A stretch of 8,459 nucleotides of DNA from positions 1 to 8,459 of the forward strand of contig JAAEPW010000704.1 of assembly GCA_024232355.1 (NCBI GenBank), given 5' to 3'. Under the pieces are notes generated by a model. The model saw only the letters and a program-made list of their open reading frames with translations, did not search any database and was not told where the DNA came from. Origin of the DNA: Chloroflexota bacterium (GTDB lineage: Bacteria; Chloroflexota; Anaerolineae; B4-G1). How positions within the stretch are numbered: position 1 is the first letter of the stretch; every line of letters begins with the position of its first letter. The translations under genes and the position numbers were made by a program. Shown here in pieces: positions 115 to 8,459 of this stretch.

Positions 115-1285
115 TATTTGTTTGGACACGGATTTTGTCGCTTTGCTTGAAGAGACATGTAAGGGCATTGTCACTTGCATACGCCGCAATTACGCAAGTG
201 TCAATGGCGATTGCCCTCGCACATATGCTTTGCTCCCTAATTCGGCAATGACGGGATCACACAAGTGCATCAATGGTCTGCGATGCAGTTGGCAATCACC
301 ATATATGCTGTGGGATGGGCAAGGGGCAGGGCTGACGATGTCTCTTAGGGTGCAAGTTGCGGTCACCCTGAAAGACTGATTGGATTGCCCTCGTTACTCC
401 ACTGACCACCCCTCCCCGCGCCTTGCACCCTAATTCAGCATCAACGGGTGTCTCAATGGCTTGTGATATAATCCACAGCCCTTCTACGTATCTTGGGACG
501 ACATGTCTAGGCATTGTCACTTAGGGTGCAAGCGGCGACCAGCCTGAAAGACTCAGTGAATTGGCCGTGGTATCTCATTGACCCTCTGTGCCTTGCACCC
601 TAACTCTTATCAGGGAGATTATCCAAGCGCATCAATGGCCTGTGGTGTAATCAATAGTCCGCCTGCGTATCTTGGGACGACATGTCTGGGCTTTGTCTCT
701 TAGGGTGCAAGTGGTGGTCACCCTAAAAGACTGATTGGATTATCTTTGTTATCCCTCAGACCATACCACCCCGTGCCTTGCACCCTAAGTCGGCATCAAC
801 GGGATCACCCGGGCGTCTCGATGGTCTGTGCCGTAATCAACAGTCCACCTGCGCATCTTGAAAGGACATGTCTGGGCTGGGCATTGTCACTTGGGGTGCA
901 AGCGACGTTTACTCTGTAAGATACATTGGACTGGATGCGACGCGTCGTTGATTACCTCACCCCGCGTCTTGCACCCCAAGTCGAATCAAGGGGATTACCC
1001 AAGCGCATCACTGGTCTGTGATGTAATCAGTAGTTCGCTTGCGTATCTTGGAAAGACATGTCTAGGCATTGTCTCTTAGGGTGCAATCGGCGGTCACCCT
1101 GAAAGAATCATTGGGCTGGATGCGACGCCCCGTTGATTACCCCACCCCGCGCCTTGCACCCTAACTCGGATCAAGGAGATCATCCAAGCACATCAATGGC
1201 TTGTGATGTAATCCACAGCCCTTCTACGTATCATGAAAAGACATGTCTGGGCATTGTTACTTTGGGAGCAAACAATGTTCTGGGT

Positions 1286-1535
1286 CTGTCATTTTTTTGT
1301 GGTCTGCTGAAACATAACTCCTGTGACACACTGAACACATCCAAAACCGATCAATGCTTGTCAGGACGTTAATAAGGATGAACCATTGTCCTCACATACT
1401 TTGGCGAGTCGAAGGTCAAGCAATCCCTTAGGCATATCGTGGATGGGCGAGGGTGGCGGCGGCAGTTAGGGAGCAATCGTCGTTTACTCTGGGATGATCG
1501 TTGATCTGACTGATCACGGCCTCCCGACAACCGCC
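1286..1535. repeat. Copy 1 of a dispersed element interrupting the tandem array
   Basis: The array rhythm breaks here: the step from 1152 to 1732 is about three units long, but the middle does not match the usual unit. The core 1311-1387 aligns without gaps to 5530-5606 with 6 mismatches in 77 bases. Similarity resumes around 1444-1475 (matching 5654-5685) and again at CCCGACAACCGCC (1523-1535 and 5731-5743). No open frame with protein character runs through it. It is best described as a second repeat family nested in the array; whether it is or was mobile cannot be told from two copies. Confidence 0.75.
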
Positions 1536-2392
1536 ACATCCTTGCGCCCCCACAACTATGCGGGCGATGATCGTTGACCTGGACACGTCAATGGCCTGTG
1601 ATGTAATCAACAGTCCTCCTGCATATCTTGGGGCGACATGTCTGGGCATTGTCTCTTAGGGTGCAAGTGGTGGTCACCTCGAAAGAATCAGTGGACTGAC
1701 CGCGGTATCTCACTGACTCCCCCACCCTGCGCCTTGCACCCTAAGTCGGATCAACGGGATCACCTGAGTGTCTCGATGGTCTGTGCCGTAATCAACAGTC
1801 CACCTGCATATCTTGGGATGACATGTCGGGGTATTGTCACTTGGGGTGCAATCGGCGACCAGCCTGAAAGAATCAGCGAACTGACCGCGGTATCCCACTG
1901 ATCGCCCCACCCCGCGCCGTGCACCCTAACTCTTATCAGGGAGATTATTCAAGCGCATCAATGGCTTGTGACGTAATCAACAGCCCGTCTGAATATCTTG
2001 GAAAGACATGTCGGGGTATTGTTACTTGGGGTGCAAGCGACGACCGGCCTAAAAGAATCATTGGACTGGATGCGACGTCCCGTTGATTACCACACCCCGT
2101 GCCTTGCACCCTAACTCAGCATCAATGGGATCACCCAAGTGGATCAATGGCCTGTGATGTAATCAACAGCCCTTCTACGTATCTTGGCAAGACATGTCGG
2201 GGCATTGTCACTTGGGGTGCAACGTCGTTTACCCTGAAAGAATTAGTGAACTGACCGCGGTGTCTCACTGCTCGTCCCACCCTGCGCCTTGCACCCTAAG
2301 TTGGATCGACAGGATCACCCGAGTGTATCAATGGCCTGTAACGTAATCAACAGTCCTCCTGCATATCTTGGGACGACATGTCGGGGCCTTGG

Positions 2393-2656
2393 TCTCTTAG
2401 GGTGCAAGTGATGGTCACCCTGAAAGATATATTGGACTGGATGCGACGCCTCGTTGATTACCTCGCCCCATGCCTTGCACCCTAATTCGGCATCAATGGT
2501 ATGTGCCGTAATCAACAGCTCACCTGCGCATCTTGGCAAGACATGTCGGGGCATTGTCTCTTAGGGTGCAAACGGTGTTCGCCCTGAAAGACTTGTTGGG
2601 CTGACCGCGGTATCTCACTGACTCCCCCACCCCGTGCCTTGCACCCTAATTCGGCA
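2393..2656. repeat. Segmental duplication inside the array, copy 1
   Basis: These 264 bases match 2929-3192 without gaps at an offset of exactly 536 bases, with about 10 mismatches. That is far closer than other units are to each other. The segment holds the GGATGCGAC-type variant of the inter-arm spacer followed by one of the two shortened 164-bp units. It shows a recent multi-unit expansion by unequal exchange or slippage. Confidence 0.85.
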
Positions 2657-2928
2657 TCAATGGGATCACCCAATCGCATCACTGATCTATGACGTAATCA
2701 ACAGTCCGCCTTCGTATCTTGGGACGACATGTCGGGGCATTGGTCTCTTAGGGTGCAAGTGGCGGTCACCCTGAAAGAACCAGTGAACTGACCGCGGTAT
2801 CTCATTGACTCGCCCACCCCGTGCCTTGCACCCTAACTCGGATCAAGGAGATCATCCAAGCGCATCACTGGCCTGTGGTGTAATCAACAGCCCGTCTGAA
2901 TATCTTGGAAAGACATGTCGGGGCATTA

Positions 2929-3192
2929 TCTCTTAGGGTGCAAGTGATGGTCACCCTGAAAGATATATTGGACTGGATGCGACACCTCGTTGATTACCTC
3001 GTCCCATGCCTTGCACCCTAATTTGGCATCAATGGTATGTGCCGTAATCAACAGCTCACCTGCGCATCTTGGCAGGACATGTCGGGGCATTGTCTCTTAG
3101 GGTGCAAACGGTGTTCGCCCTGAAAGACTTGTTGGACTGACCGCGGTATCTCACTGACTCCCCCATCCTGCACCTTGCACCCTAGTTCGGCA
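2929..3192. repeat. Segmental duplication inside the array, copy 2
   Basis: Second copy of the 264-bp block at 2393-2656, also containing the GGATGCGAC-type spacer and a shortened 164-bp unit. Four of the roughly ten differences cluster near 3167-3172, just before the last array arm, so the right end has started to drift. Confidence 0.85.
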
Positions 3193-3230
3193 TCGGCAGG
3201 ATTAGATTATCCAAGTATATCGGCGATCTG

Positions 3231-3413: not shown

Positions 3414-4325
3414 CTACTCTCTAAGCGATTGGACGAACCCTTCATACCCACACAACTGGGCGGCAGCAACTGGGTCTTTTCTTTGCCTGCGCAAGCGTGC
3501 CATCTCACGCTTGATCCTAGAGTTGGGATGCAAGCGGCCATCGCGACCCAGCATAATGCCTGTGATGCAAGGTGTGTCACCCCGGCGCGCGCGCCACACC
3601 CGCCAGCCCTTGGCCGGGTTTAGCCAATAGTCATATGCCATCAGTTCAGATCTCACCTTGGCCTCCACACCGGATGGCACGTCGCCAACGGCCCAGGAAA
3701 AGGTGATATCGTCGCCGTAGCGGGTGTACGTTCCCCCAGAACGGCGAATGAACGTGGCTAGTGTCTCGTCCAATGGGACGTTGACCAAATTGCTGAGAGC
3801 AGGGCTGGTGGGTGCGCCCTGGGGCAATGCCCCTCGAAAGATACACAGACCCGTCAGGATCGAGGCCGCAGTGCCGTCCCAGCTCTGTGCTTGGAAAAAG
3901 TTCTCCACGCGACGAGCGCGGGTATTGTCGAAAAAGTCCGTGATGTCTGCCGTGACGACGACGGCCTGTCCCAAGTGCTGGCGCGCATTGTCGGCCACCG
4001 ACATCCCTCGCCGGAAGCCCGTCGCCGCCGGATGTACTGGCAGTTGGTCCAGGTATCCACGCAGCAACGAGCGTTGCAGCGCCTTCAAGTCGGGCGATGG
4101 GGCATAGATACGCCGCTGGCTGCCATCCCGTTTCGCGCGACGGAACGGCCGATAATGGTAGCGTCCTTCTGGCCGCCTCGGCGCGCCAAAGCCCAACAGT
4201 GCGGTAGGAGATACCTCCAGCAGGCCACCAAGACGCCACACGTCGTCAGAGACCATGTCGTCCGCTGGTGCTCGGGGGACGAATAGGCGACGCGCCCAAT
4301 GGGTCAAAATGGTGACGGCAGACAC
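3414..4325 (-). CDS. Retron-like reverse transcriptase
   Basis: A 303-residue RNA-directed DNA polymerase, a normal length for a retron RT, with no fused extra domain. Motifs in order: KRDGSQRRIYAPSPDLKALQ (residues 65-84), the fingers block; GFRRG (103-107); NARQH (113-117), matching the retron NAxxH signature; TADITDFF (125-132), with the first catalytic Asp at 127; LPQGAPTSP (167-175); YTRYGDDITFS (200-210), with the catalytic pair D205-D206 in a YGDD rather than the commoner YADD box; and CITGI (253-257), a variant of the retron VTG motif. The GTG start at 4323-4325 is chosen because GAAGGA lies 8 bases upstream and because it sits 4 bases after the SPFH stop codon. Met24 lacks a ribosome binding site. 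The QGxxxSP motif argues against a DGR-type RT, which normally has a GxxxSQ form. RT identity is near certain; retron class is likely; its RNA template is not identified. Confidence 0.93.
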   Translation of the reverse strand: MSAVTILTHWARRLFVPRAPADDMVSDDVWRLGGLLEVSPTALLGFGAPRRPEGRYHYRPFRRAKRDGSQRRIYAPSPDLKALQRSLLRGYLDQLPVHPAATGFRRGMSVADNARQHLGQAVVVTADITDFFDNTRARRVENFFQAQSWDGTAASILTGLCIFRGALPQGAPTSPALSNLVNVPLDETLATFIRRSGGTYTRYGDDITFSWAVGDVPSGVEAKVRSELMAYDYWLNPAKGWRVWRARRGDTPCITGIMLGRDGRLHPNSRIKREMARLRRQRKDPVAAAQLCGYEGFVQSLRE

Positions 4326-4329
4326 AGCC

Positions 4330-5040
4330 TCAATCCTTCTTCTCGCCTTTACCGCGAGTCAGCAGATTGTCCAATCCCGGTACGATCAACAGATTGCCGG
4401 CCTTGGACGCCAATGTTACCAGCGCCTCCAGTTCTTGCAACTGCATAATGATGGGATTGTCGCGCATCATCTTGGCCGTGTTCGCCTTGGCACGCGCGGC
4501 GGCGGTTTCGTGACGAGCCGCAATCAGCGCAGCACGCCCGGCCCGGTCCGCCTCGACCTCCTTCAAAAAGACCCGCTGCACGCTGCCGGGAAGGATAATG
4601 TCCTTGACTCCTACCCGGTGGACTGTCACACCATATTTCTGGGCACGTGTGGCGATCTCTTCGTGCAAGCGGGTGCTCAAGGCTTCTCGTTCCGACAGCA
4701 GCTCCTCCACGGCACGGGTGCTGATGATCTCGCGCAATGCCAACTGCAAATCCTGATACAGATGATCGATGTAGCTTTCAACGGTATGCACGGCCAGCAG
4801 GGGATCGGTCACCGCGTATTGTGCCACGAGAGTCACGCGGACCGGCACTTTGTCGGTGGTGATCACCTCTTGTCCACTGATCGTCTGGCTGGTTTCACGC
4901 ATATTGACCTTGTGAATGTCCCGGTATTGCCAGGCCCACAGCCAGTAACGGCCTGGATCCAATAACTTGGCAAATCGTCCCTTCTCGTAGAGCAATCCGC
5001 GCTCGTATTCCCACACTTGAACCACTTGCGTTAGCACCAT
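4330..5040 (-). CDS. SPFH/band-7 (stomatin-like) domain protein
   Basis: A 236-residue member of the stomatin/prohibitin/flotillin superfamily, proteins that form membrane-associated ring or microdomain scaffolds. Seen: the family opening with V-x-E-x-x-x-G-x-x-x-x-G-x-x-x-x-x-L-x-P-G-R-Y (about residues 8-32); ETSQTISGQEVITTDKVPV (49-67), the characteristic strand pair; a YAVTDP turn (75-80); a long helical segment with REIISTRAVEELLSERE (103-119) and YGVTVHRVGVKDIILP (136-151); and an Ala/Arg/Glu-rich coiled-coil tail (about 155-195). Unlike typical slipins I see no N-terminal transmembrane segment, so it may be soluble or recruited to the membrane peripherally. It starts after a strong AAGGAGG and is followed 4 bases later by the RT, so the two are almost certainly one operon. 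SPFH proteins are not among the retron partners I know, which makes it a candidate effector or scaffold; that role is inference. Confidence 0.9.
   Translation of the reverse strand: MVLTQVVQVWEYERGLLYEKGRFAKLLDPGRYWLWAWQYRDIHKVNMRETSQTISGQEVITTDKVPVRVTLVAQYAVTDPLLAVHTVESYIDHLYQDLQLALREIISTRAVEELLSEREALSTRLHEEIATRAQKYGVTVHRVGVKDIILPGSVQRVFLKEVEADRAGRAALIAARHETAAARAKANTAKMMRDNPIIMQLQELEALVTLASKAGNLLIVPGLDNLLTRGKGEKKD
4334..4339 (-). promoter_or_regulatory. Ribosome binding site of the RT gene
   Basis: On the minus strand GAAGGA ends 8 bases before the GTG start of the RT. It lies inside the last codons of the SPFH gene, so translation of the two is probably coupled. It decides the GTG start over the internal ATG at 4254-4256. 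Confidence 0.65.
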
Positions 5041-5045
5041 ACGCG

Positions 5046-5052
5046 CCTCCTT
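5046..5052 (-). promoter_or_regulatory. Strong ribosome binding site of the SPFH gene
   Basis: Minus-strand AAGGAGG with a 5-base spacer to the ATG at 5038-5040. It fixes the start and implies efficient translation of the first gene of the SPFH-RT operon. Confidence 0.8.
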
Positions 5053-5529
5053 GCGGTTTCCATTTGTGACTATGGATCACTGTTTTTAGCTCTGACATTA
5101 TCGGCTCAGAGAACCGGTTGTTGGCAGGCCCTGCCGACTGGCTGTGTGGGACTATCATCAGGCGGGGGCGGGATTGAGGCCGGCCCTTTGGTGAGCGGGG
5201 CGCAGGTGCGCCATACATGGCCTCAGGTCCAACCGGTATCCTCCCGTCCGCAAGGCTTGATGCTAGTTGCCCTCCTGAGCAATAACCCAGGTTGGCGGAC
5301 AGACCTATCTGCAGGGCTGTCAGGTATAGTGCGGAGCACTATACCTAAAAGGTCGATCCCCTAGATGCGGTACACTCTGACCTACCGGGGAGCGCCGCGG
5401 GAGTATCGCTTCCATTATACTTGGGTTTCGCGCTTTGCAAAAGTTCATTTTCAGCACAAGCAAACGGGATGGCACAATTTTCTACTTTTGTCATTTCTGT
5501 GGCATGCCGATGATGAATTGGCAGGCAAA
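5053..5529. other. Intergenic region upstream of the SPFH-RT operon
   Basis: No credible gene. On the minus strand a GATAAT hexamer at 5097-5102 could be a -10 box for the operon, but no good -35 lies 16-18 bases upstream. Short symmetric sequences include AACCGGTT (5112-5119), an interrupted GGCAGG/CCTGCC palindrome (5123-5135) and the perfect hairpin at 5322-5346. In retrons the non-coding RNA usually lies directly upstream of the RT or the effector-RT operon, so this is the first place to look for one. I could not identify the a1/a2 arms or the branching guanosine with confidence. Confidence 0.5.
5322..5346. other. Perfect 11-bp hairpin with GGA loop
   Basis: AGGTATAGTGC (5322-5332) is the exact reverse complement of 5336-5346 across a 3-base loop. 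There is no T-run on the 3' side on either strand that would make a classical terminator, so an operator, an RNA hairpin or a palindromic repeat is more likely. Its core GTGCGGAGCAC recurs in the hairpin at 6663-6677, read there on the other strand. Confidence 0.6.
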
Positions 5530-5743
5530 AACATAACTCTTGTGACACACTGAACACATTCAAAACCGATCAATGCCCGTCAGGACGTTAATGCGGATGA
5601 ACCATTTCCCGTTCCGGAATTATTTCCGGAACGGGCGTCTGCCCTCACATGCTTGGGCGAGGGTGGCGGTGGCAGTTAGGGAGCACGTGCCGTTTGCCCT
5701 GTGCGAATCATTGGCCTGACTGGGCGTATTCCCGACAACCGCC
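5530..5743. repeat. Copy 2 of the dispersed element, direct orientation
   Basis: 5530-5606 matches 1311-1387 (6 mismatches in 77), and the match continues after an indel: 5654-5685 with 1444-1475, and 5731-5743 with 1523-1535. Weak similarity may start earlier, near 5488. The two copies are in the same orientation and lie on either side of the SPFH-RT operon. Relative to copy 1, this copy carries 34 extra bases between CCATT (ending 5606) and CCTCACAT (starting 5643); these hold the hairpin at 5608-5635. Confidence 0.75.
5608..5635. other. Perfect 10-bp hairpin present only in copy 2 of the dispersed element
   Basis: CCCGTTCCGG (5608-5617) pairs exactly with CCGGAACGGG (5626-5635) over an 8-base A/T-only loop. 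It lacks a downstream T-run on either strand. Because homologous flanks meet with only 2 bases between them in copy 1, the hairpin looks like a discrete insertion in copy 2, or a clean loss from copy 1. Confidence 0.65.
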
Positions 5744-5860
5744 CCACCCTAGTATGCACTGCAGCTATGTGGGCGTTGGACAGGTGACGGTCTCTACGCA
5801 TATCGTGGGGGGACAGGGGCTGGCGACGGCAGTTAGGGTGCAATCGCCGCTTGTTCTGCG
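5744..5860. repeat. Decayed units related to the tandem array
   Basis: Continuing from copy 2 of the dispersed element, this segment has a second GGCAGTTAGGGTGCAATCG arm (5829-5847). It corresponds to the TTAGGGTGCAAG arm of the main array, and is preceded by CTACGCATATCGTGG, as also found near 1431-1443. It shows that the array family extends to both sides of the SPFH-RT operon. The plus-strand open frame covering this stretch has no protein-like features and is not called. Confidence 0.55.
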
Positions 5861-5927
5861 AGAAGCATTGAACTGCTCTCATTCTTCCGTGACCGCTCCA
5901 GCCGGCATGTCTGCGGGGAGTTGTGAA

Positions 5928-6134
5928 TCAATCGCCGTTCGGGGAATATCGCCTCGGGCAGCCTGCACCCTGGCCTGCCTTGTGCCGCCAAAAGTAGGTT
6001 GTCTGGTTGCCATTGCGCCGTTTGCGTCTCTGCACCTCGCTGCCACAAGCGGGACAAGTGGCCGCCGGAGGGGCGTCTTTGCTGGCTGGTATCTGACGGT
6101 CATTTACTATTGCGTCGCGCATTATCCATCTCAC
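5928..6134 (-). CDS. Small zinc-ribbon-like protein, tentative
   Basis: A 68-residue frame from GTG (6132-6134), or 64 residues from the ATG at 6120-6122. The useful signal is C-P-A-C-G (residues 27-31), then the basic run RRKRRNG (36-42), YFWRHK (47-52) and CPRRYS (59-64). This gives possible metal ligands C27, C30, H51 and C59, an arrangement like short treble-clef or zinc-ribbon domains that bind nucleic acid. No strong ribosome binding site precedes either start. It lies on the same strand as, and downstream of, the DGR template, where a canonical DGR would carry an accessory gene or the RT, but it is not the four-helix accessory protein Avd. It could equally be a decayed fragment. I do not know its function. 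Confidence 0.4.
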   Translation of the reverse strand: MRWIMRDAIVNDRQIPASKDAPPAATCPACGSEVQRRKRRNGNQTTYFWRHKAGQGAGCPRRYSPNGD

Positions 6135-6261
6135 AAATCAACTTTGGGTTGGCTGCCTGCCACACATCCTGTAGAATTTTGGGGGCTCGTGGAAACACTT
6201 GGTTTCTGAGCTGTCTGGAAAACTCTGGCCATTGCCCGACACCTGTGGCAATCTATAAGGT

Positions 6262-6621
6262 TGCCCCGGCCCAGGGACGAAACCCAGGGGCCGGGGCAGT
6301 TGCTATATGCCCGAGCCGGCGGGCCCGCAGGCCCGCGACTGCGGCCAGGAGCTAGCCGCGCTTTCTCTCTTTGGTGCTTTATTCAAAGCACACTGCCTCG
6401 GCCGCCAAGCCAGTAGCCGGGCGACATTTCTGGCGGATTGCAAAGCCCTTGGGGAGAAATGAGCCACCACCACACGAAAACCGTTGTTGTCGTTGCGATT
6501 GTTCTGGGTGTTGTTGTTCCGATATGTGGAACGCGCGTTGTCATTGTTGTTTTCGAAGGAACCGCCGCGCAACACCCGGCAGCTTCCGGCTGCCCCCGCC
6601 ACCTGGCGTGAACCAGGCAGC
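6262..6621 (-). ncRNA. Probable DGR template RNA locus with flanking hairpins
   Basis: Inferred extent of the minus-strand RNA carrying the template repeat, from a putative start just after a TATAAT box to a strong GC-rich hairpin. On the 5' side, CCTGG/CCAGG (6602-6606 with 6613-6617) and GGCAGC/GCTGCC (6578-6583 with 6589-6594) form stem-loops, the second straddling the TR edge. On the 3' side there are three stems: GTGCTTT/AAAGCAC (6374-6380 with 6385-6391), GCGGGCC/GGCCCGC (6319-6325 with 6330-6336) and TGCCCCGGCCC with its complement (6262-6272 with 6288-6298). Structured flanks suit a DGR template RNA. The actual transcript ends are unknown. Confidence 0.5.
6454..6580 (-). repeat. DGR template repeat (TR)
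   Basis: These 127 bases align without gaps to the VR at 6799-6925. They differ at 15 positions (plus-strand 6460, 6485, 6488, 6493, 6494, 6500, 6512, 6515, 6518, 6525, 6539, 6545, 6547, 6548, 6551), and at every one the TR base on the coding strand is A. There is no mismatch at any G, C or T. Read in the target's frame the TR carries 12 Asn codons (AAC or AAT), the codons DGR templates favour because mutating their first two bases reaches many amino acids without making stops. The ends are invariant: 29 bases (6552-6580) on the coding 5' side and 24 bases (6461-6484) on the 3' side, the expected place for the initiation-of-mutagenic-homing sequence. The open frame through it is not a separate protein; it reflects its origin as a copy of the target's 3' end. 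Confidence 0.95.
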
Positions 6622-6627
6622 ACCCAG

Positions 6628-6633
6628 ATTATA
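6628..6633 (-). promoter_or_regulatory. Possible -10 box of the template RNA
   Basis: A perfect TATAAT on the minus strand, about 48 bases upstream of the TR start. No convincing -35 hexamer stands 16-18 bases further upstream, and there is no extended -10 TGn. It would start a transcript near 6621, just ahead of the two leader stems. Read-through from the target gene is the alternative source of the template RNA. Confidence 0.35.
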
Positions 6634-6662
6634 CGCCAAGTCTCAAATTTCGCCAGTCGCGA

Positions 6663-6729
6663 CTGTGCTCCGCACAGATTCAATTGTTGGGGGAGGGAGG
6701 CCCCTCCCCCAAGCGACCGCAACGGTCGC
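6663..6729. other. Cluster of three perfect hairpins between target gene and TR
   Basis: Three adjacent stems lie downstream of the target stop codon on the minus strand. They are GCGACCG/CGGTCGC (6713-6719 with 6723-6729, 3-base loop), TTGGGGGAGG/CCTCCCCCAA (6687-6696 with 6703-6712, 6-base loop) and CTGTGC/GCACAG (6663-6668 with 6672-6677, 3-base loop). DGRs often have a GC-rich hairpin or cruciform just after the VR that promotes retrohoming. These begin about 70 bases past the VR edge, further than in the phage BPP-1 case. They may instead, or also, act as a transcription stop, although no T-run follows. Confidence 0.6.
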
Positions 6730-6752
6730 CCCCCTCCCCAGAGTACAGGGTA

Positions 6753-6783
6753 TCAGAGGGTTCAGAGTTCAGAGGGTTCAGAG
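6753..6783. repeat. Tandem 15-bp microrepeat over the target stop codon
   Basis: TCAGAGGGTTCAGAG occurs at 6753-6767 and again at 6769-6783. The target's TGA stop (plus-strand 6762-6764) falls inside the first copy. The last residues of the protein (about 556-564) are therefore repeat-encoded and unlikely to be part of the folded domain. Confidence 0.75.
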
Positions 6784-8459
6784 GCCAGAGGTTTGAGAGA
6801 GAAAGGAGCCACCACCACACGAAAACCGTAGTCGTCGAAGCGATCGTTCTGGGTGTCGTGGTGCCGATAAGTGGAACGCGCGTAGTCATCGCCGTCTTCG
6901 AAGGAACCGCCGCGCAACACCCGGCTACCAGTCGAACCCATATCCTCACGTCCATCATCAGCCTGATAAGGATAGCTCTTCTTCAAACTGCTGGTCCACT
7001 CCCAGACGTTGCCTGCCATATCCACACATCCATACGGGCTGTCTCCAGCCGGGCTATACTTGCCCACCGGCGTCGTGGTGCCGATGTCGGACTCTCTCGT
7101 GTTGCACTTGTCCTTGTCAAACCCGTTGCCCCACGGATACTCGCGCTTTTTGCCTCCCGATTTTTCCTCATCCTTTCCAACCAAACGACCCACCACTTGT
7201 TGCAACCGCCCTCGGTCTCTTTCCTCCCAACTTGCCGCTTTTTCCCACTGGGCCTCTGTCAACATCCGCATTCCAGCCCATGCAGCATAGTCACGGGCAT
7301 CGTACCAGGAAACACTCACTACAGGATGGTCGGATTTGCCATCCGGAACGTCAAAAGGCTGCCCAACGTCATTCCTGTACCGTTTGTACTCGGCGTTGGT
7401 CACCGGGTACTTGGCGATGTAGTAAGCGTCCAGAGTTACCTCGTGGGCCGGTTTCTCGTTGCTCTGACTGCTATTGTCATCCCCCATAATGAACGGTCCC
7501 GCCGGAACATAGCACTCGTACACCAATCGCTCGCGCCACGTGCCGTCGGGCTGCAACCGCTCCAGCGCGTGAATGGCAGTCACACGCACCTGGGGATAGT
7601 CGTCCTTGAGCATTTCTGCGAGCGGTCCGGCAAAACGTTCTCCCAATTCGCCCAGGGCAACCACGGCAGCGGCGCGCGTGTCAAAATTGTTGGATTTTAG
7701 CCCATCCCGCGCAATGTCATCCACCGGCACGTCACCCTCGCGGGCGCGCTCGAACCAGTAGGCCACCTCGTGCCCGGCGGCCAAGGCCGAACGGAATAAG
7801 AGTTCCAGTTCGTCAGGCGTAAGGCGCCGCAGCCCCTCGCGCTGCTCGTGGATCATTTTGAGCGCCGCCGGTTCGATCAACTTGTCCAGGATGCGATAGC
7901 TCTCCAACTCGCGCCGCAGCAGCTCGCGCACCAGCTTGGTCTGCATCTCTCCCTCGTCGATCCAGGTGGCGATCTCGGCCGCGATATAGTCGTGGGCCAG
8001 CTCGTAGAGTGCGCCCTCCCTCGCCTGAGAAGCAGCGGTGAAACTGCGCAGCAGGCGCAGGTCGACCAATGCCTGCCGTGTGGCGTGCAAGCGGTTTACG
8101 TCCCTTGAATTGTCGGGGTCAAAATCGGGGTCAGCCTCGGCCATTCCGGCCACCATCTCGGCATCGTTCAACGCCGCCTTGGTCGCCTGGCTGGTAACCA
8201 GCACTTTGAGCAGCGCCTCGGCCACGGCGCGGTCGCCGCCCCGTTCGGGCGCGTCGTCCAGCGCGTCCTTGACGTAATCGGCCAGGATATCGCCCGCGCC
8301 GCCCAACTCGCGGTAGAGGTCGAACGTCAGTGCTAGTTCGGGCGGCGTCCAGTCCTTTCCGGCGGCCCCTTCGGCGGGCGGCTTGAGGCCCGCTTGGGCG
8401 AGTGCCTGCCGGTAGAGGCGGTCCATCACGATCTGGAGCGAGGGCGGCGGGATCAACCC
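6762..8459 (-). CDS. DGR target: STAND-type NTPase tail, HEAT and FGE-sulfatase protein (5' end outside window)
   Basis: The 3' part of a larger gene; the frame is open to the right edge, so the N-terminus is missing. Residues are counted from the TTG at 8454-8456. Residues 1-165 (PSLQIVMDRLY, ELGGAGDILADYVKDAL, LLKVLVTSQ, RLLRSF, YELAHDYIAAEIATWID) resemble the segment that follows the P-loop ATPase in bacterial STAND proteins. Residues 253-303 are one to two HEAT-like repeats. Residues about 313-552 form an FGE-sulfatase (formylglycine-generating-enzyme-like, C-type-lectin fold) domain: [73 protein letters not shown] and GFRVVVA. The variable repeat encodes about 511-552. The likely role is a receptor-like conflict or immune ATPase whose C-terminal sensor is diversified; enzymatic formylglycine synthesis is unlikely. 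The effector domain and Walker motifs would lie beyond the right edge. Confidence 0.92.
   Translation of the reverse strand, partial: GLIPPPSLQIVMDRLYRQALAQAGLKPPAEGAAGKDWTPPELALTFDLYRELGGAGDILADYVKDALDDAPERGGDRAVAEALLKVLVTSQATKAALNDAEMVAGMAEADPDFDPDNSRDVNRLHATRQALVDLRLLRSFTAASQAREGALYELAHDYIAAEIATWIDEGEMQTKLVRELLRRELESYRILDKLIEPAALKMIHEQREGLRRLTPDELELLFRSALAAGHEVAYWFERAREGDVPVDDIARDGLKSNNFDTRAAAVVALGELGERFAGPLAEMLKDDYPQVRVTAIHALERLQPDGTWRERLVYECYVPAGPFIMGDDNSSQSNEKPAHEVTLDAYYIAKYPVTNAEYKRYRNDVGQPFDVPDGKSDHPVVSVSWYDARDYAAWAGMRMLTEAQWEKAASWEERDRGRLQQVVGRLVGKDEEKSGGKKREYPWGNGFDKDKCNTRESDIGTTTPVGKYSPAGDSPYGCVDMAGNVWEWTSSLKKSYPYQADDGREDMGSTGSRVLRGGSFEDGDDYARSTYRHHDTQNDRFDDYGFRVVVAPFSLKPLASEPSEL
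6799..6925 (-). repeat. DGR variable repeat (VR) in the target gene
   Basis: Gapless partner of the TR, at a constant offset of 345 bases. Relative to the TR the coding strand shows seven A-to-G, five A-to-T and three A-to-C changes and nothing else. Eleven of the 12 template Asn codons are altered (target residues 521 Asp, 522 Gly, 523 Asp, 525 Tyr, 532 His, 533 His, 534 Asp, 538 Asp, 540 Phe, 542 Asp, 543 Tyr; Asn537 unchanged). One change is silent (Thr529), and one outside the Asn codons gives His to Pro at 551. The constant scaffold residues (ARSTYR, GFRVVVA) are untouched. In this fold the variable residues are expected on the ligand-binding face. Confidence 0.95.

Follow-up and report, generated by a model that had tools for sequence, protein, structure and literature searches.

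A sensor gene with its own mutagenic template and no adjoining DGR reverse transcriptase: a candidate non-autonomous diversity-generating retroelement module in a Chloroflexota bacterium

Which enzyme rewrote the 3′ end of a sensor gene whose contig codes for no enzyme of the expected kind? The question is raised by an 8,459-bp contig of a Chloroflexota bacterium (probably Anaerolineae), analyzed here in its entirety as the window, in which a template repeat (TR) and a variable repeat (VR) bear the adenine-specific differences of a diversity-generating retroelement (DGR), and the sole reverse transcriptase (RT) gene is retron-like. The rewriting enzyme does not lie beside the sensor and its template, which suggests that it acts from elsewhere in the genome. 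We favor, at a probability of roughly 0.72, the reading that the window holds a non-autonomous DGR module served in trans by a partner RT that we infer. The module consists of the following features, where R1 and R2 are covariance models described below:

6762–8459, minus strand: target (variable protein) gene, Pfam FGE-sulfatase at 3.7e-49, its 5′ end cut by the contig end
6799–6925, minus strand: VR at the 3′ end of the target gene, by near-repeat alignment
6628–6633, minus strand: −10-like TATAAT, 53 nt before the TR; an identical hexamer lies at this distance in the unit of genome G051
6591–6622, minus strand: predicted 5′ leader hairpin shortly before the TR (single-sequence fold of the 60 nt preceding the TR, −23.4 kcal/mol)
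6454–6580, minus strand: TR, by near-repeat alignment
6454–6461, minus strand: IMH*-like TR end (CATTTCTC), compared with the IMH-like VR end (CCTTTCTC) at 6799–6806
6339–6438, minus strand: structured RNA module 1 (spacer RNA), starting 15 nt after the TR (R1, 46.3 bits, E 6.7e-8)
6260–6317, minus strand: structured RNA module 2, a CGGGCATATAGCAAC anchor and a 10-bp terminal hairpin, 136 nt after the TR (R2, 56.7 bits, E 4.3e-13)

An earlier reading of the sequence (the original prediction) had proposed that the TR and VR align over 127 gapless bases with 15 differences, all of them at A in the coding-strand template, and realignment confirmed each of these points, with the minus strand coding. 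The substitutions are to G, T, and C, as had been claimed (7 A>G, 5 A>T, and 3 A>C), 11 of 12 AAY codons are indeed altered in the VR frame, and with 34 A among the 127 template bases the hypergeometric chance that all 15 differences fall at A is 1.6e-10. Two parts of the prediction need amending, and both concern the 15th difference, an A>C change at TR position 121. The same difference is present in G051 and in two further units, L268 and L269 (TR CTCATT, VR CTCCTT), giving the four units a common difference of the IMH/IMH* type, as it is termed in the DGR literature (PMC12875486, in part). Because of this recurrence, we prefer to interpret the change as a fixed IMH*/IMH boundary mark rather than as a product of mutagenesis, a role proposed from the sequence comparison. 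The flanks, described as perfectly conserved, are so at positions 1–29 and 97–120 only, with position 121 differing, and the mutagenic footprint probably comprises 14 sites rather than all 15. With the boundary mark excluded, the first 120 bases contain 33 template A and 14 differences, every one of them at an A (chance 1.2e-9); these fall 11 times at codon position 1, twice at position 2, and once at position 3. This pattern supports reading the differences as a DGR footprint left by past mutagenic retrohoming. Two G+C-rich inverted repeats (GCGACCGTTGCGGTCGC and GGGGGAGGGGCCTCCCTCCCCC, minus strand) also lie between the VR and TR at 6689–6729, and are possibly a target-site hairpin or a terminator.

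A cross-species comparison with G051, whose target is 69% identical to that of the window, shows how closely each VR follows its own template. The G051 unit has the same layout and aligns with the window unit from TATAAT through the terminal hairpin, with no nucleotide similarity beyond; its VR lies at the end of contig L202 and its TR near the end of contig L272. Over the columns common to all four sequences, the G051 VR differs from its TR at 17 A and at two other positions. The two templates differ at 17 sites where neither has A, and at 16 of the 17 both VRs match their own TR, the single exception sitting at the boundary mark. From these 16 sites, we conclude that homing, as copying of TR into VR, continued after the window and G051 lineages split. 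The L272 TR also contains about 20 bases absent from its VR, so the template and VR lengths have changed relative to each other. No DGR RT or Avd was found in the 7.3-kb contig carrying the G051 TR (6.8 kb downstream of the unit), and no DGR RT in the 4.5 kb upstream of the G051 target frame.

The footprint and past mutagenic retrohoming are thus the parts of the original prediction of a DGR that stand, by the A-only sites and the comparison with G051; a whole DGR at this locus does not, as neither a DGR RT nor Avd was found in the contig, whose single RT is retron-like. We searched with a panel of 31 DGR RTs, comprising Brt of Bordetella phage BPP-1 and 30 RTs from the surveyed set, which consists of 298 genomes of the class of G001 (the genome of locus L001, Chloroflexota by title; the class is probably Anaerolineae). 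In the 8,459-bp contig, the panel gave only scattered chance matches, and a subset of seven RTs gave none at E 1e-6. The tblastn matches at 5041–6453, between the TR and the SPFH gene described below, were considered as an RT remnant and rejected as chance, being short, in mixed frames, and free of catalytic motifs; a Zn-ribbon frame at 5928–6134 was below all cut-offs. Avd was not found in the contig by three Avd queries (best E 0.50), and the 6.2 kb that follow the unit downstream contain neither a DGR RT nor Avd. In the class, Brt matches at E 1e-10 or better occur in at least 80 of 298 genomes; the weakest of these matches may be other RTs. Of the class loci, 24 distinct ones combine a DGR RT with a TR/VR pair; RT and TR are separated by 76–610 bp in every one of them, and 23 of the 24 also have Avd. 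A more distant TR is generally possible, since five of these 24 loci were seen only as stretches of ~3.5 kb and eight further RT loci have no TR/VR pair in the stretch examined.

The part of the unit that such an enzyme would recognize appears complete. The TR lies ~220 bp downstream of the VR and target, with the −10-like box before it and structured RNA after it. A TR promoter at this box can be inferred only; a consensus scan for full sigma-70 promoters, in which a −35 box was required, found none, and −10-like boxes over 33 TRs numbered 10, compared with 2.6 expected by simple shuffles, which is not decisive. The sequences 3′ of the TR in RT-bearing loci have two structured modules in common, and RNAalifold, applied to 11 loci, predicted 16 pairs, of which 12 show two-sided change in at least one sequence. 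We modeled the two modules separately because a whole-element alignment (A3) misaligned the terminal hairpin. R1 was built from 15 and R2 from eight of the 24 RT-bearing loci, with the window and L235 left out of both; the window had, however, been part of the comparison after which these training loci were picked by visible motif, and the covariance E-values are approximate. L235 was matched by both models (R1, 8.3e-7; R2, 1.3e-5). We scanned 53 sources with R1, and 23 matched at E up to 0.05: besides the window, these were 22 of the 34 RT-bearing sources (some of them sampled twice from the same place, and some in the training set), so that module 1 is not universal among RT-bearing loci. 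None of the 18 others, which lack a DGR RT, matched. R2 over ten genomes gave matches in six and none in G001, G002, G003, and G291, the four having been picked for the gene pair of SPFH and RT described below; G001 and G291 lack a DGR RT among the matches listed, and G002 and G003 are outside that sample. Rfam gave no match of note in the window and one sub-threshold match. Judged by its R1 and R2 matches, the template RNA of the window is intact.

The target is, by its domains and relatives, a defence-type sensor gene of the nSTAND1-HEAT-FGE family, some members of which carry SIR2. Its frame is open for 565 aa and codes for HEAT repeats and a C-terminal FGE-sulfatase domain, and the VR occupies the last part of this domain. 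FGE-sulfatase is described as a C-type-lectin subtype (PMC10907252, in part), which places the VR, as in other DGRs, at the 3′ end of a target with a C-type-lectin-like fold, the fold being given by family assignment. The nearest relative is the partial protein P0122, with 91% identity across 69% of the query; P0123, which comes second, carries nSTAND1, HEAT, and FGE domains. Some full-length relatives have N-terminal SIR2 and nSTAND1 domains, and both P0122 and the L202 protein of G051 combine SIR2_2, nSTAND1, HEAT, and FGE.

RT-less units are not confined to the window and G051. A search of the 298 genomes with R2 under stricter filters gave 67 rows, with matches in 48 genomes; 29 of the 67 lie on contigs without a DGR RT among the matches listed, and we examined 26 of the 29, a selection whose RT-less share should not be taken as a population frequency. 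A DGR RT was not found by tblastn in 20 of the 26. An A-biased pair adjoins R2 in eight of the 26 (L287 weakly; L274 with just 0.5 kb of contig downstream). Three loci, L268 and L269 in G222 and L279 in G167, combine an A-biased TR/VR pair with RNA modules 1 and 2, and no RT or Avd was found in their 14, 20, and 20 kb, respectively; their targets are CHAT-FGE proteins at L268 and L269 and a KAP-NTPase-FGE protein at L279. At 24 of 26 non-A template differences between the window and L279, both VRs carry the base of their own template, although these units are distant and the copied sites mainly show cis pairing; L268 and L269 offer only one informative site. Each of the three genomes G051, G222, and G167 has a DGR RT match on another contig. 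That of G051, on a third contig, is a DGR-type RT with IGNLTSQ and YGDD in a 376-aa frame and is accompanied by Avd, and the two RT loci of G222, L210 and L212, carry both RNA modules (both loci are in the R1 training set, and L212 is also in that of R2).

Other loci show related arrangements. In G268 (L239 and L209) and G132 (L234 and L236), a VR on another contig matches the RT-linked TR, with 81% and 93% of the differences, respectively, at template A, and these genomes may exemplify distant service without a local TR. Three loci, L235, L283, and L285, have a TR/VR pair with Avd and no DGR RT in 17.6, 9.8, and 20 kb; their targets are NACHT-FGE, TIR-FGE, and protein-kinase-FGE proteins. L277, on a 4.67-Mb contig of G231, has an R1 match of 79 bits and Avd with the DGR RT present as short fragments only, and is possibly a decaying locus.

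In the mechanism we propose, the TR RNA would be transcribed on its own from the −10-like box, and its 3′ RNA would recruit an RT–Avd complex encoded at another locus. The complex would then make cDNA with errors at A, and this mutagenized cDNA would replace the adjoining VR. We further suggest, with confidence only a little above even, that some Chloroflexota (probably Anaerolineae) carry a conserved class of such modules, each with a sensor and its VR, a TR of its own, a promoter for the TR, and a recognition RNA, lacking RT and Avd and diversified in trans by RT–Avd loci elsewhere.

The RT that the window does encode belongs to a separate, conserved gene pair:

3414–4325, minus strand: retron-like RT (QGAPTSP, YGDD), not part of the DGR, by profile matches and tree
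4330–5040, minus strand: SPFH/band 7 gene, partner of the retron-like RT and not part of the DGR (Pfam Band_7, 4.2e-30)

This RT falls in the retron clade by NCBIfam (retron_St85_RT, 187.5 bits, below the 235 cut-off), by PADLOC (RT_Ec107-like), and by a tree of 41 RTs in which it groups with its relatives (98/89) on the retron side, with 12 DGR RTs apart (100/100). It is of the same kind as the Ec86 and St85 type RTs of retrons, and it stands outside the TR/VR system with an SPFH partner. An SPFH gene lies directly upstream of RT relatives in seven of 37 distinct loci (L001, L002, L003, G222, G291, L006, and L012), the hosts being, by title, Chloroflexota for the first three and planctomycetes for L006 and L012. 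We regard SPFH and the retron-like RT, from this recurrence, as a gene pair of its own; our literature search, which covered part of the literature, found no publication with such a pair in its title. Downstream of the RT, an array of ~14 units with a period near 185 bp spans 339–3200, each unit having an 81–89 base stretch between inverted repeats like TTAGGGTGCAAG and CTTGCACCCTAA and forming long hairpins on both strands in single folds. No array of this period was present beside the pair in the other loci scanned, and the repeat unit matched nothing in the 298 genomes, a search that had no positive control and is uninformative. Two diverged copies of a composite repeat (78 bases at 92%, 69 at 80%, and 21 at 90%) at 1310–1542 and 5529–5750 flank part of the array and the SPFH-RT pair, as if the segment between them had been inserted or rearranged.

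Could the retron-like RT itself perform the adenine mutagenesis, which would make this a DGR of a new kind? The contig encodes no other RT, and this one shares the strand of the unit and lies 1.9 kb from it, and yet we reject this idea as extremely improbable. Besides its place in the tree, it carries QGAPTSP in place of the IG..SQ of the 12 DGR RTs, and its SPFH-paired relative occurs in G001, a genome without a DGR RT among the matches listed. Neither SPFH nor a retron-like RT is found in the G051 loci L202 and L272, and the genomes with RT-less units G051 and G167 are not among the nine of 298 matching this RT family at E 1e-30. Across 163 loci with retron-like RT relatives, three of which are repeats of the same place, there was no clear TR/VR pair, only short gapped candidates at L019 and L070. 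A more conventional explanation is a standard DGR with its RT and Avd just beyond the contig, on the far side of the target gene, which runs off the contig end; the eight RT loci without a pair also make an RT far from its TR conceivable. An RT so placed would be at least 1.9 kb from the TR, and a gene matching its 1,104-aa relative in length would put it more than 3 kb away, compared with the 76–610 bp seen in all 24 loci, and no DGR RT was found on either side of the G051 unit. We consider this explanation possible and unlikely. Slightly less likely still is a fossil, in which diversification ended with the recent loss of a local RT and Avd. Array-related repeats partly occupy the stretch downstream of the TR where an RT would be expected, and such arrays have replaced RT genes in Thiohalocapsa PB-PSB1 (PMC10907252, in part); however, the template RNA matches both R1 and R2, the VR equals the TR at every non-A site, and the RT-less layout recurs in G051, G222, and G167, a recurrence that could also reflect recent, parallel loss of local RTs.

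Several observations count against service in trans. For the window organism, the partner RT–Avd is putative, and the G051 unit is split across two contigs of a fragmented genome. Across 15.1 kb, the RT–Avd locus of G051 gave no noteworthy R1 or R2 match (best E for R1, 0.94). In G167, the RT reaches a contig end, and the 9.9 kb examined contain no match to either model and no Avd. An RNA common to an enzyme locus and an RT-less unit is therefore seen only in G222, which weakens the case for a trans-served class. Among the 26 R2 loci, 18 have no A-biased pair beside R2 and six have RT matches: L270 (weak, and antisense to Avd), L271, L277 (the fragments noted above), L281, L282, and L293. Seven of the 20 RT-less loci (L273, L275, L276, L278, L289, L291, and L292) have neither a pair nor an R1 match and may be chance R2 matches.

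If service in trans is correct, the portable part of a DGR would be the template RNA with its 3′ structure, and one RT–Avd would serve several templates per genome and several self-templating sensors of SIR2-nSTAND, CHAT, and KAP-NTPase types. It would supply a testable rule for which RNAs an RT–Avd accepts, and R1 and R2 would serve as a search model that finds templates independently of the RT, where RT-anchored surveys overlook such sensors. Hypervariable ends would be linked to several defence-type proteins within one bacterial class. Autonomous transposons serving non-autonomous ones offer an analogy for an RT–Avd serving several modules.

Among known systems, the DGR of BPP-1 (mtd-avd-TR-brt) resembles the window in its changes at template A, its VR at the target 3′ end, and structured RNA 3′ of the TR, which in BPP-1 is a spacer RNA that recruits the RT–Avd complex (PMC12875486, in part). 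In the BPP-1 stretch searched, the best R1 match (E 0.085) fell short of the 0.05 threshold. The TR of BPP-1 lies between brt and bbp7, the latter identified as Avd by PHROGs and Pfam, whereas the window has neither. A closer likeness is to the incomplete DGR loci of Thiohalocapsa PB-PSB1, for which excerpts of PMC10907252 describe nSTAND/FGE sensor targets, repeat arrays in place of the RT gene, and proposed activity in trans; the window shares the type of sensor target, the missing RT gene, and a repeat array in its place. There, the VRs of DGRs 4 and 5 are reported to match the TR of DGR 2, whereas the window unit keeps its own TR and its VR follows it. Nanoarchaeal partial DGRs are described as having a target, VR, and cis-acting elements only (PMC4372165, in part); they too lack an RT gene, and the window adds a TR and RNA modules. 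Cyanobacterial remote variable proteins are encoded far from the RT, with VRs matched to the TR of a DGR elsewhere in the genome (PMC7517822, in part), and the window likewise has no RT nearby. In the accessible portions of PMC10907252, PMC4372165, PMC7517822, PMC8144416, and PMC10053308, and in a search by title that left most subscription literature outside, we found no RT-less unit with its own TR and recognition RNA followed across species. Partial and remote RT-less DGR targets are thus already published, and what the window would add to them is the self-templating RT-less unit that carries its own recognition RNA.

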